Source: Chitinophaga sancti (GTDB taxonomy: Bacteria > Bacteroidota > Bacteroidia > Chitinophagales > Chitinophagaceae). Taken from it: 64,000 nucleotides of DNA. The translations under genes were made by a program, and so were the position numbers. Positions 28,326 to 37,002 of the stretch are shown one piece after another (within the stretch, counting starts at the first letter, position 1; each line of letters opens with the position of its first letter). The stretch covers positions 744,001-808,000 of the forward strand of contig NZ_CP139247.1 in assembly GCF_034087045.1 (NCBI RefSeq), read 5' to 3'. The notes below the pieces were generated by a model, which searched no databases, was not told the DNA's origin, and worked only from the letters and a program-made list of their open reading frames with translations.

Positions 28326-29180
28326 TCAACTGCTGATCTTGTGTACTACAAGATTATCATAGTAGATGTATCCATCTGCTGAAGCTTCCCAATAGTCTTC
28401 ACTACCGCCCCGGAAGGTGTGGAAGGTCAATCCTTTGATCAGGCGTTTGCTATCATTGGTTGTCCAGCGGATATCTCTGTCTAATACGATTGTATTATCG
28501 ATCACGTATTGAACGTGACCATCTGTGTTACTACCGGTATTGCTTTTTACATACAGGTGTACATGATACCATTGTCCTTTATTGAGGCTACCTGAAGAAG
28601 GGTACGATTTACCGAAAGTCTCTCCATAAGTACCTGATTGGTCTTTGAAGTAGAGGTAAGGTTGGAAGAACACACGGCCAGCATCGGTTTGATACCACAT
28701 GAGGCGTGCACTGCCACCATTGCCATCCCATCCAGGGTCGCCGCCGGTGTTGCCATCGCCGATGGAGAATCCGAAGCCCAGCTTACCACCTCTGGACCAT
28801 TCGAACTGACTATGAAAACGAATGTCATAGTCTACTTCGTAGGCAGAGCCGTCGGAGATGTCGACATTGCCGATAACGCCGCCAGCACCGGAGAGTGCGT
28901 TGGCAAGGAGTTTAATGCGGCAGTTACCATTGGAGATCCAGCAACGGCTATCGACCCAGCCGGTGATGTTGCCGAAGTCGGAGGCAGCCGAGGAGCTGGC
29001 GTAAGTACCATCGGCATAGTTGTTCCAGTTTACTGACCAGCTGCTGTTTATTGCTGAACCAACAGCAGTGGTTTGTAAGGCTGAGGCAGATGCGAGGGGC
29101 GGAGGTGAAGCGGCCTCCTTACTGCAAGCGCAGCATAAGGTGAGGGCGTAGAAAGCAAATACGCCGAGTTTTGATGTCAT
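28326..29180 (-). CDS. Lipoprotein with polysaccharide lyase (PL14/PL20-like) jelly-roll domain
   Basis: A 284-residue lipoprotein; the signal peptide ends in CCACS, with Cys19 the likeliest lipidation site. The domain at about 75-280 follows the PL14/PL20 beta-jelly-roll pattern: a YDIRFHSQFEWSRGGKLGFG strand pair, then GGSARLMWYQ, LNKGQWYHVHLYVK, GHVQYVIDNTIVL and FHTFRGGSEDYWEASADGY near the end. Members cleave alginate or glucuronan by beta-elimination, but exact substrate and catalytic residues cannot be read with certainty here. As a surface or periplasmic lipoprotein it could act with the nearby carbohydrate genes. It has its own transcript start after the 29262 terminator. Confidence 0.7.
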   Translation of the reverse strand: MTSKLGVFAFYALTLCCACSKEAASPPPLASASALQTTAVGSAINSSWSVNWNNYADGTYASSSAASDFGNITGWVDSRCWISNGNCRIKLLANALSGAGGVIGNVDISDGSAYEVDYDIRFHSQFEWSRGGKLGFGFSIGDGNTGGDPGWDGNGGSARLMWYQTDAGRVFFQPYLYFKDQSGTYGETFGKSYPSSGSLNKGQWYHVHLYVKSNTGSNTDGHVQYVIDNTIVLDRDIRWTTNDSKRLIKGLTFHTFRGGSEDYWEASADGYIYYDNLVVHKISS

Positions 29181-29340: not shown

Positions 29341-31938
29341 CTATTTGGAAGAACGTCCGTTACTTACAATAATCTTTTGTCTTGATACTACCCGCTGCCG
29401 TTCATCTGCCACTGTAACTATGTACAGGCCTCCCGGCAATCCACTCACATTCAGGGAAATACTATTACCCGGCGCTATGCGCGAAATATGTTTCACACCA
29501 TTAATACCATATAATGTTACTACATACTTTGCTACCTTACCCGGCAGGGATACATTCACATATCCTGAAGCTGGATTTGGCCATACATGGCAGGTTGGCA
29601 CTTTTACTGTATCAATAGTAGTTGTATCAGGTACTACCGGTTCGTCAGGATAAGTAAATGGAAAATCGATCTGCGCCTGCTTAAACTGCATTTCCAGTTC
29701 ATCATCCCACTTAAATGCCGTATCTGCCTGTTTCTTCAGACTATATTTCACAGCACCACTCCAAAAATGCACAAACTCACCAAGATTCAGATCACGGGTA
29801 TACGCTCCATTATGCTGTGGGAAATATTCAGACAATAATGTAAAATACCTGTTCAGCGCTGCACTGGAATCAGAACGTGTATAAATAGGATAGAACCAGT
29901 CCCTGAACCAATGCGTACCTGGCTTAGGATAGTTCTCCACACCACCTATTACATCGTTGTAAGTGCCCTGTGCATCCTCATTCCAACCCAATCTCTTTTC
30001 CACATCATAAATGAATATCTCCATCCATTTACTATCATGCCATATTGCAAATGCAGGTGAATTCATTACACCCTTGCTACCACCTTCTACGATATGCCCA
30101 ACCTCATGTATCGATGCACCCACATTCCAATCACTTCTCGTGGTCCAGTCACCACCCAGATCAGCGACGTTGCGATAATCGTGTGAACTATCAAATACAG
30201 TAGCCGGATGACCACCTGAGAACCCGGTCACACTGTGGTATACCATGTTTAATTTCGGATCACTAAAGGTGCCGTAATTTGATTTTACATAATCCCACAC
30301 CTTTGTCATATCATCATTCATCCAGGTCACCGTGCGTGGTACAGCACTATCATAGTACATATTGATACTGCTATTGCTATATACTAACGATAATAGTTCT
30401 CTATGTTCAAACCAATGCTCCTTCCAGGTAGCAGGTGGTGTACTTGTCAACGTAGTATCACTCGCATATACCCATGCAGAATTACCAGCGCTGTTTTCTG
30501 CTCTTACGCGATAATAGTAAGTAGTGAGCGGAGACAATTCCAGTGAATAGAAATGAGTGGAGTTTGGATTTAATACTTTTGAAAAATCCCAGTTGCTGCT
30601 ATCAGCAGATCGCTCTAAACGATAATTGGTTTCAGTCGTTGAATTATCAGACCAGTCCAGAATAATCTGGTTGCCTGAAACGCTTGTGGTGACTAAGTCC
30701 GAAGGGGCCGCAGGTGCACCTGTAGGGAAAGAGCCACTACCAGTACCATAGATTTCCAATTCTGAGAACTGAATCAAATCATCGCCGTTATTCGCAGTAA
30801 TGTTTAAACGATAGTAGGTATAAGCAGTCGTGTTAGAGAAAACAAAGGTTCTCTTTTTTTGTCTGCCTGTGAATACCTGATTTGTTTCACTATGCAATGT
30901 TACCCACGTAGTACTGTCGTTAGAACCTTCAAACACCCAGTTTTTAGGATCTCTGCCATCCGCATCGTTTCCGGAGGTAATAGCATACTGTGTTGCTATA
31001 CCGGGATTAGCCAGATGATATATGACCCAGGTAGTTGGATTGTATGCGAGGTATTTGGTGTAGATGCCGTTGTCAACTGCTTTTGCAATACCTTCTCCAC
31101 CAGTAGTATTAAACTGGTCTGAAACTTTTCCATTTACATAATCAGTCAGATCAATGGCATAAGGTGCAGCGGCAGTTCTTACTACACCTGATTTTGCGAT
31201 AGCAGACACACCCACTGAGTTGATGGCTCTCACGTGGTAAATGTAAGCCGTTCCTACACTCAGACCGCTATCGGCATAGTGATGCACATTTGCCGCTACA
31301 GTATCCAGCGTATTGAAAGTAACCCCATCAATAGAACTGGAAACGATAAAGCCTGTTTCATTCGTAGAATTATCCGACCAGCTCAGGTATGCATTGTATC
31401 CTGAAATGCTGGCGGTGAGTTGAGTGGGTGCCGCAGGCCCTGCAGCTGATCCGGACAGTCTCCATTCTGAAAACTGGATGGAACCAGCGCCATTGCTGGC
31501 AGTGATGTGCAAGCGAAAATAAAGGTAAGCAGCAGTACCGGATACGGTGTAAGTGTTAGTCTGGTAACGGGCTGCAAATGTTTGTGCAGTCTGACTATCC
31601 AGTGTAACCCAGTTACTGCCGTCATTGGAACCTAAGAGCACCCAATCCTTAGGGTCTCTGGTCGATGCATCATTGGCAGAAGAAACAGCGTATTGGCTTA
31701 AAATGGCTGAATAGGCCGACTGATACTGCACCCAGATGTCTGTGTGGGCAGTATAGTACTTGGTGTTTACATCATTGTCAGTGATACTCTGATAGTTTTC
31801 CTTTGCGTTGTCATCGTTGTAATACTGTACAGTGACGGTACCTCCATTTGCGGTAAGGTCTGTCTGGGCAAGGGCGCCAAGACTACTGCATAGGCATACA
31901 GCGAACAAAGATAGCTTTGTAAAATTACGGGTCATCAT
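29341..31938 (-). CDS. T9SS-exported discoidin/fibronectin-III protein with HExxH metallopeptidase-like domain
   Basis: An 865-residue exported protein. After the signal peptide (ending LGALAQ) come two F5/8 type C (discoidin-like) domains (about 25-165 and 265-400), each followed by a fibronectin III domain (about 170-255 and 410-500). A catalytic-looking domain (about 510-770) contains SIHEVGHIVE with His611, Glu612 and His615, a zincin HExxH motif. The C-terminus has VWPNPASGYVNVSL and ends in a typical T9SS sorting domain (GLPGGLYIVTV). It should bind glycans or surfaces and cut protein. The third zinc ligand is not certain. OmpR-type repeats lie upstream at 32062-32091. Confidence 0.8.
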   Translation of the reverse strand: MMTRNFTKLSLFAVCLCSSLGALAQTDLTANGGTVTVQYYNDDNAKENYQSITDNDVNTKYYTAHTDIWVQYQSAYSAILSQYAVSSANDASTRDPKDWVLLGSNDGSNWVTLDSQTAQTFAARYQTNTYTVSGTAAYLYFRLHITASNGAGSIQFSEWRLSGSAAGPAAPTQLTASISGYNAYLSWSDNSTNETGFIVSSSIDGVTFNTLDTVAANVHHYADSGLSVGTAYIYHVRAINSVGVSAIAKSGVVRTAAAPYAIDLTDYVNGKVSDQFNTTGGEGIAKAVDNGIYTKYLAYNPTTWVIYHLANPGIATQYAITSGNDADGRDPKNWVFEGSNDSTTWVTLHSETNQVFTGRQKKRTFVFSNTTAYTYYRLNITANNGDDLIQFSELEIYGTGSGSFPTGAPAAPSDLVTTSVSGNQIILDWSDNSTTETNYRLERSADSSNWDFSKVLNPNSTHFYSLELSPLTTYYYRVRAENSAGNSAWVYASDTTLTSTPPATWKEHWFEHRELLSLVYSNSSINMYYDSAVPRTVTWMNDDMTKVWDYVKSNYGTFSDPKLNMVYHSVTGFSGGHPATVFDSSHDYRNVADLGGDWTTRSDWNVGASIHEVGHIVEGGSKGVMNSPAFAIWHDSKWMEIFIYDVEKRLGWNEDAQGTYNDVIGGVENYPKPGTHWFRDWFYPIYTRSDSSAALNRYFTLLSEYFPQHNGAYTRDLNLGEFVHFWSGAVKYSLKKQADTAFKWDDELEMQFKQAQIDFPFTYPDEPVVPDTTTIDTVKVPTCHVWPNPASGYVNVSLPGKVAKYVVTLYGINGVKHISRIAPGNSISLNVSGLPGGLYIVTVADERQRVVSRQKIIVSNGRSSK

Positions 31939-32061
31939 AAAGGGCGTTATGCGTTTAGTTAATAAAGTGCGCTCTAAAAATGTGGCTGTCGATTTTGGTC
32001 TACAGTGTCAGGTCAACACGATTCTATATAAAAATAAGCACAGGTCGGTTACAAACCTGTC

Positions 32062-32091
32062 AATGGATTTCAAATGGATTGTTAATAGATA
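32062..32091. promoter_or_regulatory. Direct-repeat box, 11-bp period, upstream of the T9SS metalloprotease gene
   Basis: AATGGATT, AATGGATT and AATAGATA start at 32062, 32073 and 32084, exactly 11 bp apart, with TCA and GTT spacers. OmpR/PhoB-family regulators bind such 11-bp direct repeats. The same arrangement occurs at 34737-34766. The box lies 124-153 bp upstream of the minus-strand metalloprotease start. Confidence 0.5.
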
Positions 32092-33512
32092 TTAAAGATA
32101 TCTTTCAGAGATTTTTTTGCAGCGTGGTAGCCACACATGCCGTGAACGCCGCCACCGGGAGGGGTTGCAGAAGAACAAACATAAATACCTTTTGCAGGGG
32201 TGCTATAGGGAGAGAGTCTGATAGCAGGTCTTGTATATAGTTGTGTAATATCTAATATTCCACCATTGATATCGCCACCAATGTAGTTGGGATTGTAGTC
32301 TTCCATTTGCCGGGTGTTCATGGTATGCCTGCCAATAATGCGATCACGGAAACCGGGGGCAAAGCGCTCAACCTGATTCTCGATTTGCGTAGTCATGTCT
32401 ACGATAGAACCATGGGGAACGTGGCAATAGGCCCAGGCAGTATGGCTGCCTTCAGGAGCACGGGTTGGGTCGAAGATGCTTTGCTGTGCCAGCAATACAA
32501 AAGGGTTATCAGGATGATGCCCTTTTGAAGTGAGTTGTTCATTGGCCGTGATCTCTTCCAGTGTATTGCCCAGATGCAGGGTACCAGCTTTGCGGCAATG
32601 TTCATTGGTAAAAGGGATCGGACCATCCAATGCCCAGTCTATTTTGAATACGCCCATACCGTACCGATAGCGTTGCAATTGGTATTTGTATAGTCCTTTT
32701 ATTTTGTCGCCTGCTATTTCCAGTAATTGCTTAGGTGTTACATCCAACAATATAGTGCGGGCAGGAGGCAGGTCATTTAATGAGCGTACATAAGTATTCG
32801 TTTGTATCTCGCCGCCGATAGATTCGAAGTAAGCTGCCAGTGCATTGGCGATGGCTTGTGAGCCTCCTTGTGGTGCAGGCCATCCCTGCAGGTGACCATT
32901 GGCTAATAAGACCATTCCTATAGCCGCTGTAGTGAGGTTGGTCAATGGCTGAATAGCATGTGCCGCCATTCCGGCAAATAAGCCTCTGGCCGCCTTTCCC
33001 TGAAATTTATTCGCTAGGGTTCTGGCCGGTAATAACGCTTTCAGCCCAAAACGCACCATAGCACCGGGATGCTTTGGAAACGCCAATGGACCCAGTAATG
33101 CAGGTGCCAACGCTGGCCAATCCCTCACTACCGGGTCCATGAGTTGATGATATGTATGTTCATCTATGCCAAGTCCTTTGGCTGTCTCATCCAGTGAGCG
33201 ATTTAATACAGCTGCTGTACCATCGTCAAATGGGTGTGCAGCGGCCACTTCAGGTTGCAGGAATTTCAGTCCATAATCTGCCAGTGGCAGTGTGCTAAAA
33301 AACGGCGATCCTGCTGCTAAAGGATGAATGGCAGCGCATACGTCATGTACAAAACCAGGCAAGGTAAGTTCTTTGGAACGGAGGCCGCCACCAATGGTAT
33401 CCCTACCTTCCAACAGTAATACCTGTATACCCTGCTGTTGCAGGGTGATAGCTGCCGCCAGGCCGTTGGGACCTGCACCTACTACGATTGCATCATATGC
33501 CTGTTTGTTCAT
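32082..33512 (-). CDS. FAD-dependent oxidoreductase, phytoene desaturase-like
   Basis: A 476-residue flavoprotein. It opens with a Rossmann dinucleotide motif IVVGAGPNGLAAAITL and then LLLEGRDTIGGGLRS, the arrangement of CrtI-type phytoene desaturases and related amine oxidase-fold enzymes. The C-terminal FAD-binding segment is present near GIYVCSSATPPGGGVHGMCG. It has no signal peptide. No carotenoid genes (crtB, crtZ) are nearby, so the substrate is open; the wider family includes retinol saturase-like and uncharacterised dehydrogenases. It stands alone on the minus strand. Confidence 0.85.
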   Translation of the reverse strand: MNKQAYDAIVVGAGPNGLAAAITLQQQGIQVLLLEGRDTIGGGLRSKELTLPGFVHDVCAAIHPLAAGSPFFSTLPLADYGLKFLQPEVAAAHPFDDGTAAVLNRSLDETAKGLGIDEHTYHQLMDPVVRDWPALAPALLGPLAFPKHPGAMVRFGLKALLPARTLANKFQGKAARGLFAGMAAHAIQPLTNLTTAAIGMVLLANGHLQGWPAPQGGSQAIANALAAYFESIGGEIQTNTYVRSLNDLPPARTILLDVTPKQLLEIAGDKIKGLYKYQLQRYRYGMGVFKIDWALDGPIPFTNEHCRKAGTLHLGNTLEEITANEQLTSKGHHPDNPFVLLAQQSIFDPTRAPEGSHTAWAYCHVPHGSIVDMTTQIENQVERFAPGFRDRIIGRHTMNTRQMEDYNPNYIGGDINGGILDITQLYTRPAIRLSPYSTPAKGIYVCSSATPPGGGVHGMCGYHAAKKSLKDIFNIY

Positions 33513-33660
33513 ATTGTTATTAAGATTGCCCCGCTTCGATGGTACTTTCAGACAATGTATACCATTTATCTACCTTATCCAAAATTACGTAAATGCATCA
33601 CTACTATAAGGCCTCAATCAATAACGCAGCATTTCAAACTTCCATTATTTTAATAAAAAT

Positions 33661-33688
33661 AATGGCATCACAAAATTGCGATGCCATT
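33661..33688 (-). terminator. Terminator after the 83-residue small protein gene
   Basis: ATGGCATC pairs with GATGCCAT around an inner CAA/TTG pairing; on the minus strand the hairpin is followed by TTATTTTTATT. It lies 22 nt after the small gene's stop. A second A/T-rich inverted repeat (CCATTATTTT / AAAATAATGG) overlaps its far side. Confidence 0.55.
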
Positions 33689-33710
33689 CCAATCCATTAC
33701 CTGGGGCACT

Positions 33711-33962
33711 TTATCGTTCCATCATATCAAGGATATCAGTCCAGATAATTCTCGCGATCTGCTCACTCTCCACCATTCTGATCCGATCTGCCGGCATCAC
33801 CATACTGTCTTCCTGCCAATCCATATTATCCGGCATAAAATCTTTCAGAATGTTACCACTTGTGATTACTTCATAGGTGGTTTCATGACGTACTTCGTTT
33901 ACACTGATCACAATTTGATAGGACCGACCCTCTATATATACTGTAATTGTATTCTTTTCCAT
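33711..33962 (-). CDS. Small protein, function unknown
   Basis: An 83-residue acidic protein from MEKNTITV; the frame could begin three residues earlier. It has no signal peptide or membrane segment. The pattern of short strands (TITVYIEGRSYQIVISV) then helical C-terminus (SEQIARIIWTDILDMMER) suggests a compact alpha/beta fold. I do not recognise it. Support comes from the ORF, an adjacent terminator, and a 7-bp hairpin (TTGCGAC/GTCGCAA at 33987-34005) 25 nt upstream of the start. Confidence 0.5.
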   Translation of the reverse strand: MEKNTITVYIEGRSYQIVISVNEVRHETTYEVITSGNILKDFMPDNMDWQEDSMVMPADRIRMVESEQIARIIWTDILDMMER

Positions 33963-34044
33963 AACAAACAAAAATTAGTTGTGCTATTGCGACAATAGGT
34001 CGCAACAGTGGGGTACAAAGGCTGTAAGATCAGATATAAGAAAG

Positions 34045-34212
34045 CTAACCATGATTGGCCACGCGATGTCCCGCTTTTTTCGCCACGCCGGTAGGATGGG
34101 GTCCCCTGTTTTTTTCCTTGTTGGTGGTCAGGCCAATGGCTTCAGCCTGACTGGGGTGCTTCACTTTCTTTCCACTTTCATGCTTTGTTCCTTCATTCTG
34201 GTTTTTTGCCAT
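34045..34212 (-). CDS. Small basic protein, function unknown
   Basis: A 55-residue protein from MAKNQNEGTKHESGKK, rich in Lys, Gly, His and Asn, with no hydrophobic segment. The composition and the pattern KKVKHPSQAEAIG recall small, disordered stress- or nucleic-acid-associated proteins of Bacteroidota, but I cannot name a family. The frame extends upstream to 34266; the added 18 residues include two cysteines and look unlike the rest, so I chose the inner ATG. It is the last minus-strand gene before the hairpin-rich gap. Confidence 0.5.
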   Translation of the reverse strand: MAKNQNEGTKHESGKKVKHPSQAEAIGLTTNKEKNRGPHPTGVAKKAGHRVANHG

Positions 34213-34424
34213 GTCAACTTCGCATTTTAATGGGTGAGTAATAGAAGAACACTTTAGGTAAATCAAAAGGTTTGCCAGCTTGTGAAGGAGAGGGTTAAAT
34301 AATGTTAACTAGATGACAATCAACACACAATAGATAATATTTGTTTACTGCGTCAGGGGTAGGTAGGTCTGTATATATGTCTACAAAGTATTCCAATAGT
34401 CTCCTTACTTAAGTTAAGTACTCC

Positions 34425-34466
34425 CAACCCCGGCCGATTTGCCTCCGGCAAAATCGACCGGGGTTG
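34425..34466. terminator. Long GC-rich hairpin (first of a tandem pair)
   Basis: About 19 bp of stem with one wobble and one bulge; the apex reads TTTGCC/GGCAAA around TCC. The apex is shared with the hairpins at 18343 and 57151. It lies in a divergent intergenic region with no gene ending here. Confidence 0.5.
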
Positions 34467-34470
34467 AATT

Positions 34471-34513
34471 CGCCCATACTATGTTTTATCTTGAGTAAAA
34501 CATAGTATGGGCG
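34471..34513. terminator. Perfect 18-bp hairpin (second of a tandem pair)
   Basis: Positions 34471-34488 pair perfectly with 34496-34513 around a 7-nt loop. It starts 4 nt after the first hairpin. The stem ends TTTTA/TAAAA at the apex. Confidence 0.5.
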
Positions 34514-34736
34514 AGGGTAACAATTAATTTAATAACCGCATACTACATACCAGGGGGCTAATAAGAATGAAAAACCTGTTGAGACCTGGTTCTCGGCCTG
34601 GCTTGCAGCATGCAATCTAAACTACAGAATACTTGTTGCGTGGTAAATTTTAGCACAAAGGAGAGGACACCGCCTCTATTAATAACGTTAAAACTATGTA
34701 TTGCTAAATTACCGATACCATTCATTAAAAGTTGTC

Positions 34737-34766
34737 AATGAATTTCAAACGAATTGTAAATGAAAT
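34737..34766 (+). promoter_or_regulatory. Direct-repeat box with 11-bp period before the kinase/OmpR operon
   Basis: AATGAATT, AACGAATT and AATGAAAT begin at 34737, 34748 and 34759, each 11 bp apart with 3-bp spacers. This is the geometry of PhoB/OmpR-family boxes. The box ends 21 nt before the kinase ATG, so the regulator encoded at 36301 may control its own operon. Confidence 0.6.
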
Positions 34767-34787
34767 TTAAATTCCCGATATTTAAAT

Positions 34788-36287
34788 ATGAACAGAAAAA
34801 CGCGGTTGGAGTTTAAACTGGCGATTGAAAGAATATATTTGTCTTTCAGGAATTATTACATGAGGCATCCGGTTAAGGTTTACATTACTTCTTCTGTCAT
34901 TTGTTTCATTATATTGGCAATAGTCCAGATCATGTTAGTTTACAATACCTACGATCTGCTAAACAGAAGATTCTACTATGAAAAGAAAGGACGTATCAAT
35001 GAACGTTATACAAAGGCAATCATCAACGACCACGTCTTCCCGGGGGGGAAAGATATTATTGATGGCCTGTTAACACCGCAATACCATGAACTCGAAAAAC
35101 TTTACCAAGCCGGTGATACCGCCCGTTTCAATCGTGCATCCCAGATAATACTCCGGAGTGTTTTCAATACTCTCATCAACAAACAAAACGCAGAAGCGCT
35201 GCTAAGAGATATCAAACTCAAAGAAGGCATTCACGATTCACTCAGGTACCTGCTTGTCGTATCCCGTATAGACCTCCAATTCGCTGATTTAAAATATGTG
35301 AACATCTATGACAAGCGAAAAAAATACCCGCTTATAGACGATACTATTCAGACACCAAAGGGAATCAAAATATTCGGCGACCTGGCAAACCCCGATGAGC
35401 AAAGTCAGATCATCGGTCTTTTTGTATCAGATCCAAAACCGTATACATACGCCATTAGTTTTTCACTCTACGCCGATCCTTACAACCGACGGCAGGTAGT
35501 GTTCAAACAAATGCAGGGCATCCTCACCATGAGTCTGCTCTCGGTATTGGCCATCATCATCCTGTTCTTCATCACGCTCCGCAACTGGATCAAACAGAAG
35601 CATATTGCCGATGTAAAAACAGATTTCATCAACAATATCACCCACGAATTCCATACGCCACTCTCAGCTATCATGGTGGCCAATAAAAACATCCAGAACG
35701 AACGGGTGCTCGAAAACAAAACCGCCATCCGCTCCCTCTCCGACATCATAGAGCGACAATCACAGCGATTGAAGCTACTGATCGGCCAGGTGCTGGACAT
35801 TGCTACTATCGATAACTTATACGTACAGAAAGGCCCTGAAGACCTGAATGTGCTGATCAGTGAGATACTCACCGACTTTAGTATCAAGTTCCCTTCAGAC
35901 AACCTGCAATTGTCTTTTATACCTGCCCCGGAAACAATTATAGTCGATGCAGACAGTTTTCATTTTACCACCCTGCTGCTCAATCTCCTCGATAACGCAG
36001 TGAAATACAACCTGCAGGAGGTAAAACATATACAGGTCGCCACCATAGAAACAGAAACTGATATACAGATCTCGATCAGTGATAATGGAATTGGTATGGA
36101 TAAAGAAACAATCCGTTATATCTTTGACAAGTTCTACCGAAATCAGAAAGATCTGACACAAAATGCCAAGGGTTTAGGACTTGGCCTGCATTATGTAAAG
36201 CAATGCATAGATGCTCACCAATGGACAGTAAAAGTAGAGAGCGAGCCTGGCATGGGAAGTACATTTGTAATCATTATACCTAAGTGA
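34788..36287 (+). CDS. Membrane sensor histidine kinase
   Basis: A 499-residue kinase with two membrane segments (about 31-52 and 246-265) flanking a periplasmic sensor region of about 190 residues. HisKA has ITHEFHTPLSAI with phospho-acceptor His286. HATPase_c has LLDNAVKYN, ISDNGIGMD, IFDKFYRN and KGLGLGLHYVKQ. The layout matches RprX-type kinases of Bacteroidota. The gene stands 13 nt before an OmpR-family regulator gene, its evident partner. A triple direct repeat lies directly upstream, suggesting autoregulation. The signal is unknown. Confidence 0.92.
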   Translation: MNRKTRLEFKLAIERIYLSFRNYYMRHPVKVYITSSVICFIILAIVQIMLVYNTYDLLNRRFYYEKKGRINERYTKAIINDHVFPGGKDIIDGLLTPQYHELEKLYQAGDTARFNRASQIILRSVFNTLINKQNAEALLRDIKLKEGIHDSLRYLLVVSRIDLQFADLKYVNIYDKRKKYPLIDDTIQTPKGIKIFGDLANPDEQSQIIGLFVSDPKPYTYAISFSLYADPYNRRQVVFKQMQGILTMSLLSVLAIIILFFITLRNWIKQKHIADVKTDFINNITHEFHTPLSAIMVANKNIQNERVLENKTAIRSLSDIIERQSQRLKLLIGQVLDIATIDNLYVQKGPEDLNVLISEILTDFSIKFPSDNLQLSFIPAPETIIVDADSFHFTTLLLNLLDNAVKYNLQEVKHIQVATIETETDIQISISDNGIGMDKETIRYIFDKFYRNQKDLTQNAKGLGLGLHYVKQCIDAHQWTVKVESEPGMGSTFVIIIPK

Positions 36288-36300
36288 AAATTGTAAGGGG

Positions 36301-37002
36301 ATGAAACACAAAATTCTGTTAGTAGAGGATGAAGCAGACCTCGGAAACGTTGTTAAACAATACCTGGAATTAATGGATTTTGATGTGGACTGGCAGCAAA
36401 ATGGCCGGACCGCCCTGGACCTGTTTGAGAAATCGCCCAATGCCTATCATATTCTCCTCATAGATGTAAACCTCCCCGGATTGAATGGATTCGAACTGGC
36501 GGAGCAGATCATCAGGCTCAACAATCATGTCCCATTCCTGTTCCTCACAGCAAGAGGGGACAAGAATGACCGGCTGAGCGGCTTGAAGATAGGTGCAGAT
36601 GATTATGTGGTCAAACCCTTTGATGTAGATGAACTGGTACTACGCATCCGTAACATCATCAAGAGAAAGCAACCTGTTGTGAGCGCTGAACCTGCCCAAC
36701 AAAGTGTGATCAATATAGGAACGACCCACCTTTTTGTAGATTCACTGAAGCTGGTGACGGAGCAGGGAGAAGAGATCATTCTCACCCCAAGAGAGTGCGA
36801 TTTGCTGGTATTGTTCTTTAACAATGTGAACCGTGTATTGAAGCGGGAAGAGATCCTTACAAAAGTGTGGGGCTCTAACGACTACTTTGTAGGCCGTAGC
36901 CTCGACGTATTCATTTCACGTTTTAGAAAGTATTTCCAACATAATATTAATATCAGTATCAAGAATGTATATGGTATTGGTTTTGTATTTAATGTGAAAT
37001 AG
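36301..37002 (+). CDS. OmpR/PhoB-family response regulator
   Basis: A 233-residue regulator. The receiver domain (1-120) has ILLVEDEADL, phospho-acceptor Asp55 (LLIDVNLPGLNG) and the conserved lysine in DDYVVKPFD. The C-terminal winged helix (about 138-233) includes LTPRECDLLVLFFNN and GRSLDVFISRFRKYF, the OmpR/PhoB DNA-binding signature. It follows the kinase by 13 nt, a classical two-gene operon. Regulators of this type bind 11-bp-spaced direct repeats, like those at 34737 and 32062. It resembles RprY, partner of RprX. Confidence 0.93.
   Translation: MKHKILLVEDEADLGNVVKQYLELMDFDVDWQQNGRTALDLFEKSPNAYHILLIDVNLPGLNGFELAEQIIRLNNHVPFLFLTARGDKNDRLSGLKIGADDYVVKPFDVDELVLRIRNIIKRKQPVVSAEPAQQSVINIGTTHLFVDSLKLVTEQGEEIILTPRECDLLVLFFNNVNRVLKREEILTKVWGSNDYFVGRSLDVFISRFRKYFQHNINISIKNVYGIGFVFNVK

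Follow-up and report, generated by a model that had tools for sequence, protein, structure and literature searches.

Which regulator reads two matching arrays of 11-bp direct repeats in the genome of Chitinophaga sancti, and why do they stand in different orientations to the genes next to them? The arrays lie in a 64,000-nt stretch (contig NZ_CP139247.1, forward-strand positions 744,001 to 808,000; the whole of it is called the window here), one upstream of a histidine kinase-response regulator gene pair (box A) and one beside the gene of a secreted, discoidin-bearing metalloprotease (box T). We consider it quite likely that both are operators of the OmpR/PhoB-type regulator of this pair (36301-37002), with autoregulation at box A and control, probably activation, of the metalloprotease gene at box T. 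A preliminary description of the locus had already assigned both genes to this regulator; conservation and rarity of the boxes, the receiver and Trans_reg_C domains and the co-occurrence with the kinase support that assignment.

The repeats themselves are as they had been described: three octamers in exact 11-bp steps start at 34737, 34748 and 34759 in box A (AATGAATT, AACGAATT and AATGAAAT) and at 32062, 32073 and 32084 in box T (AATGGATT, again AATGGATT, and AATAGATA), the third octamer being the imperfect one in either box. The core common to both is longer than originally claimed and extends over 39 nt, from TGTCAATG to TTAAA/ATTAAA, so that each array comprises three units of approximately TTGTnAAYRRA and a partial fourth. 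In the 8.32-Mb genome, a sequence-only profile built from 35 distinct boxes, the two of the window among them, finds boxes T and A as its sole strong matches, and the next site has an E-value of 0.011; the feared abundance of random genomic matches is thus absent. The pattern AATRRATTNNNAAYRRATTNNNAATRRA has exactly two exact matches genome-wide, which are the two boxes, and with up to two mismatches it has 5 matches versus 2 for the pattern read backwards. A triple-octamer matrix from boxes A and T themselves scores them at 31.9 and 31.3 bits (next non-overlapping site in the window: 14.2), which is a circular test. Besides, we built matrices from the boxes of other genomes without the window clade, using 16 of 19 metalloprotease-side rows and 14 of 16 kinase-side rows. 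The metalloprotease-side matrix gives the two boxes 47.9 and 41.6, with the next non-overlapping site at 9.7. A chance similarity or a dispersed repeat element would fit the AT-richness of the motif, but is ruled out by the presence of two matches only in 8.32 Mb, their register across divergent species and their recovery with a matrix from other genomes.

The boxes are kept in close as well as distant relatives, which removes the concern about poor conservation. Among 79 same-genus genomes, 38 contain the kinase (39 genes at E ≤ 1e-80), and a direct-orientation box with a score of at least 20 lies upstream of 34 of the 39 genes, including that of G003 (G and L numbers are our handles for genomes and loci), where the longest kinase open reading frame (ORF) starts upstream of the box. 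Among the kinases of at least 64% identity, 21/21 have the box at exactly -55 from the ATG of the ORF. The best profile E-value per genome is below 1e-3 in 30/38 kinase-bearing genomes versus 1/41 of the others, and that one genome (G046) contains a kinase ORF that is shortened and has a box of its own. Under these strict filters eight kinase-bearing genomes lack a strong hit (G030, G038, G051, G059, G062, G065, G072, G074); four of them (G030, G038, G051, G072) nevertheless show a kinase-side box scoring 21-29 in the matrix scan. Fisher's p for the co-occurrence is 3.6e-13, a value that is overstated by the relatedness of the genomes. At the level of the order, we sampled 298 genomes evenly; 10 of these yielded a kinase match at E ≤ 1e-100, including six from five other genera of the family. 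The matrix places a direct box within 130 bp upstream of the kinase in four of these six, and the profile finds sites at E ≤ 0.01 in three of the six genomes.

The same holds for the metalloprotease gene, which occurs in 28/79 genomes (E ≤ 1e-150). Box T is kept upstream of 19/19 orthologs with at least 58% identity, and is also present at the orthologs of G055 (54%, unlinked to its kinase) and G071 (47%). Homologs without a box are found in G022, G046, G033 and G042:C9 and as a second copy in G071.

These distributions bear on the alternative that the boxes belong to some other regulator, for which the adjacent two-component system is just one more target. The genome has 16 further matches to the regulator at E ≤ 1e-20, the closest of which has a similar recognition segment, DYFLGRSMDVFITKLRKHF, but strong boxes track this particular kinase over the 79 genomes and sit at its promoter across genera. 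Moreover, a scan of the 1.5 kb flanking each of the 16 paralog genes on either side gave no box above 14.6, an argument of little weight as the same scan misses box A; the genome-wide outcome of the profile search counts for more. We regard another regulator as improbable. The protein encoded at 36301-37002 itself has both domains of the OmpR/PhoB type, a receiver (PF00072, 90.9 bits) and a winged helix (PF00486, 62.3 bits), both above cut-off; its gene starts 14 bp after the end of a HisKA/HATPase_c kinase ORF, and tandem direct repeats of about 11 bp lie upstream of its presumed target genes, again as expected for this type. The segment DYF[VL]GRSLDVF[IV]SR[FL]RK is largely kept among 28 regulators of the system, with G074, G049, G051 and G062 deviating most.

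That the orientation of the boxes relative to the two genes differs, as had been pointed out earlier, turned out to be a general rule: the box is direct at the kinase gene and inverted at every peptidase gene with a nearby box. A search for genes with the peptidase domain (E ≤ 1e-30) gave 94 genes in 43/79 genomes, all of which were scanned. A box with a score of at least 20 lies within 600 bp of 37/81 peptidase genes in kinase-bearing genomes versus 0/13 in the others, and the box is inverted in all 37. This peptidase-side count is the better test of co-occurrence, because kinase-side boxes are necessarily missing where the kinase is missing. The 37 include i) 21 metalloprotease boxes that were used in building the profile, ii) ten cases in which one box lies between the kinase gene and a divergent gene for a 305-319-aa peptidase, direct for the former and inverted for the latter (G001, G003, G020, G032, G035, G037, G039, G042, G066, G068), and iii) six boxes that are neither in the profile nor at a kinase gene (G020, G023, G039, G065 and two in G003). 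Eight more peptidase genes have an inverted box several kb upstream, heading an operon in which SusC/SusD-like genes were recognised by inspection, and a ninth (G001:C1:2453196) has a box of 29.2 in a longer locus (L221); for the remaining 36/81 we found no box. The window shows the polarity seen in the relatives: the peptidase gene is on the left side of box T and the kinase gene on the right side of box A. The simplest history would start from an ancestral unit of peptidase, box and kinase, whose single box has become two. In relatives the two boxes are up to 13 kb apart, and in G035 oxidoreductase, SusC/D-like and divergent peptidase genes lie between them; no remnant of a divergent peptidase gene before the kinase was found in the window.

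Several observations weigh against a regulon of this kind. The kinase-side matrix without the window clade is much less sharp (boxes at 25.0 and 17.3), and taken alone it puts box T (17.3) barely over an unrelated site (15.9). The kinase genes of G023, G059 and G065 have no box and those of G074 (16.2) and G062 (18.9) only weak ones, and 44/81 peptidase genes in kinase-bearing genomes lack a box within 600 bp, among the boxless ones the second peptidase-domain gene of C. sancti itself (G000:C1:3277914-3278717). G022 has both kinase and metalloprotease, yet no box at the latter. The orientation rule also has its counterexamples outside the peptidase genes: a box in G066 and G067 is direct for a GH18-like gene and inverted for the SusC-like operon on the other side, and a box in G055 and G009 is direct for a PAP2 gene and inverted for a SusC/D-peptidase operon. 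Finally, the genomes are related, so that counts are not independent, and boxes near a score of 20 are individually uncertain because a Markov null gives 3.6 scores above 18 per Mb.

With regard to the mechanism, the kinase presumably phosphorylates the regulator encoded just downstream, whose subunits would line up head to tail on the DNA, each on its own 11-bp unit. Box A is directed towards the kinase-regulator operon, as would suit autoregulation; the array of box T is directed away from the metalloprotease gene and ends approximately where a -33 element would lie, from where it probably activates the gene. For the promoters, we relied on the Bacteroidetes -7 consensus TANNTTTG (PMC6847099). 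The first 24 codons of the kinase ORF (34788-34859) do not look coding: variable columns in codons 2-24 are distributed 10/11/15 of 23 over the three codon positions, as compared with 17/2/32 of 36 in codons 25-60, and codons 2-24 hold the nearly invariant GAAAGAATATATTTG with a full -7 consensus match. This is why 34860 is, in our view, the probable start codon, with transcription presumably beginning near 34846; on the other hand, the 72 nt concerned have the same length in all 21 genomes compared, which counts against this start. Box A would then span about -113 to -75, and box T about -72 to -34 of a metalloprotease transcript start near 32024. At box T, the 19 close orthologs are gapless from the box to a TATATTAG-like element located 24 nt past the box-edge TTG, which reads GATATTRG in five orthologs and TATTTTTA in the window clade; G071 shares this stretch, and G055 does not keep a -7-like element. 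A manual estimate of the helical phasing of boxes A and T is not diagnostic, as the -7 elements are putative.

These positions also speak to the possibility that the same regulator, bound to the same boxes, represses the metalloprotease gene, the kinase operon or both and releases them on a signal. A conserved TTAAATTYCCRATATTTA block adjoins box A, and with promoter positions that are putative an unmapped promoter could be covered there, but neither box covers its best -7 match, both being located upstream of it, and at box T the spacing is constant at 24 nt, in keeping with activation. In Salmonella PhoP promoters, reversed boxes are reported to be activating when they lie 27, 37 or 48 nt ahead of the -10 hexamer, with one working orientation only at a given place (PMC3335776); the fixed distance of the inverted box T is thus compatible with activation. 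Repression is a possibility to be reckoned with, albeit an unlikely one, and we lean towards activation of the metalloprotease gene.

A further explanation takes the orientation of box T literally: the box reads on the plus strand like box A and overlaps the oxidoreductase stop codon, and might drive antisense transcription over the oxidoreductase gene, or control that gene, instead of the metalloprotease gene. However, the conserved promoter-like element is on the metalloprotease side, no conserved promoter was seen on the oxidoreductase side, and G020, G023, G003 and G039 have an inverted box before an unlinked lipoprotein peptidase gene; we give this explanation hardly any weight. Coding constraint as the cause of the conservation of box T was ruled out as well, since the oxidoreductase stop lies just outside the box in L009, L010 and L018. 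The features of the locus are collected in Table 1.

Table 1. Features of the box A/box T locus (positions in the window)
Feature	Coordinates	Strand	Remarks
Presumed target gene, 865-aa secreted protein	29341..31938	-	Two discoidin and two fn3 stretches, HExxH domain, T9SS tail
281-aa stretch with HExxH peptidase-like domain	29614..30456	-	Invariant motif residues and structure model
Putative -7 element TATTTTTA of metalloprotease gene	32029..32036	-	24 nt from box-edge TTG; TATATTAG/GATATTRG in orthologs
Box T	32058..32096	+	Between oxidoreductase stop and metalloprotease gene; inverted relative to the latter; profile E 4.0e-9
FAD-dependent oxidoreductase gene	32082..33512	-	Pfam NAD_binding_8/Amino_oxidase; between the two boxes; stop codon overlaps box T
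Box A	34733..34771	+	Upstream of kinase gene, direct orientation; profile E 8.2e-9
Histidine kinase ORF	34788..36287	+	HisKA (PF00512) and HATPase_c (PF02518); true start probably 34860
Putative -7 element TATATTTG of kinase operon	34834..34841	+	Full match to TANNTTTG in a nearly invariant stretch
OmpR/PhoB-type response regulator	36301..37002	+	Response_reg and Trans_reg_C; presumed binder of both boxes

The presumed target protein matches F5_F8_type_C, fn3 and Por_Secre_tail above the Pfam cut-offs, and its C-terminal Por_Secre_tail (PF18962, 43.8 bits, cut-off 27) identifies it as cargo of the type IX secretion system (T9SS). No Pfam or NCBIfam model matches the HExxH domain (about residues 495-775). 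In the 281-aa stretch, H117, E118, H121 and E146 are invariant in 38 sequences, with the HExxH motif at 117-121 and E146 as a glutamate 25 residues further on. A structure model of this stretch has a mean pLDDT of 91.6, and its best Foldseek matches are zinc peptidases of the families M1, M61 and M30, with modest scores (best E 2.7e-4; query TM ≤ 0.54 among the 50 matches listed); a search against PDB sequences gave nothing under E 0.2. A gluzincin-type zinc peptidase would combine HExxH and a downstream glutamate with a thermolysin-like fold; with its invariant motif residues and modest fold matches, the domain is a candidate for this type.

Some neighbouring features should be mentioned. Between box T and the presumed -7 element lies a hairpin (ACAGGT-9-ACCTGT, 32040-32060) followed by a T-rich run on the minus strand, which is possibly the terminator of the oxidoreductase gene; by eye, L009 and L018 have ACAGCT..AGCTGT at this place. 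A polysaccharide-lyase-14-like gene (28326-29180), just downstream of the metalloprotease gene on the same strand, might share its transcript. The metalloprotease ortholog in L059 (G045) has one in-frame TAA. Upstream of the kinase, two adjacent near-perfect inverted repeats (34425-34514; 16-nt arms 94%, 19-nt arms 100%) are REP- or terminator-like. As for the weak sites elsewhere in the genome, the context of C1:4326404 (E 0.011) tells nothing, whereas the site G000:C1:8145815-8145851 (E 0.037) recurs in the sister genomes G045, G048, G052 and G053 and, weaker, at the matching place in G001; located about 550 bp upstream of a SusC-like gene, it is a candidate for a further box.

Boxes before other genes in the relatives give an idea of what the system is used for. 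In G066 and G067 the box lies between a gene for a GH18 endo-beta-N-acetylglucosaminidase-like lipoprotein (L254, L123) and a divergent SusC-like gene, and in G017 and G021 before the corresponding SusC-like gene; in G067 there is no match to the discoidin metalloprotease. An inverted box precedes a gene with a 3-keto-disaccharide-hydrolase domain in G009, G055, G032 and G066 (Pfam was run on the G032 copy only). In G257 and G360, which belong to another genus and have no profile hit at E ≤ 0.01, inverted boxes scoring 18.5-26.9 stand before GH92 genes, SusC-like genes and one 239-aa gene. Only two of the six other-genus genomes (G331, G366) encode the peptidase domain, on the strand opposite to the kinase and at distances of 10 and 6.4 kb from it, and the kinase locus of G366 also has an alpha-L-fucosidase. 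This collection of genes suggests glycoprotein foraging, and the signal may derive from glycoproteins. As a tentative extension, to which we give somewhat less than an even chance, the pair might be a two-component system of the Chitinophaga family that is dedicated to glycoprotein foraging and uses its polar tandem operator as an orientation code, direct at its own operon and inverted at effectors, namely zinc peptidases, SusC/D-like transporters, GH92 mannosidases and 3-keto-disaccharide hydrolases. If true, a box shared by two divergent genes could adjust feedback and the output of the effectors separately.

A kinase-regulator pair that seems to be uncharacterised thereby gains a testable candidate binding site, a core family of targets and a probable function; the presumed targets include an HExxH domain family without a Pfam or NCBIfam model, and the orientation rule offers a clean system for studying the action of a polar tandem operator in both directions. 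Searches of open-licence PMC papers brought up none on this pair, its motif or its regulon. PhoB-type response regulators bind pho boxes, which are direct repeats arranged in tandem at 11-bp intervals ahead of promoters. Protein type and repeat spacing are alike here; the unit of approximately TTGTnAAYRRA, the 3.5 or more units, the Bacteroidota promoters and the targets differ. The best two NCBIfam matches of the regulator, RprY (NF051850, 185.7 bits) and Bacteroidota PhoB (NF053854, 171.9 bits), are far under the respective cut-offs of 370 and 270, which places it in neither family. Hybrid two-component systems of polysaccharide loci have kinase and regulator fused in one protein, in contrast to the two separate ORFs found here. 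HaeR (PGN_0753) of Porphyromonas gingivalis is reported to bind its own promoter and those of ragA, kgp and rgpA, and resembles the present regulator by description, as a Bacteroidota response regulator with its own promoter among the targets, as presumed here; in contrast to the boxes of the window, the pertinent part of that account mentions no repeat motif or direct repeat (PMC3764172). Comparable in box layout is the Salmonella PhoP regulon, in which a promoter may have its box in direct or in reversed orientation, each subject to limits of position, and effector genes have both orientations (PMC3335776), whereas nearly all effectors of the present system have reversed boxes.

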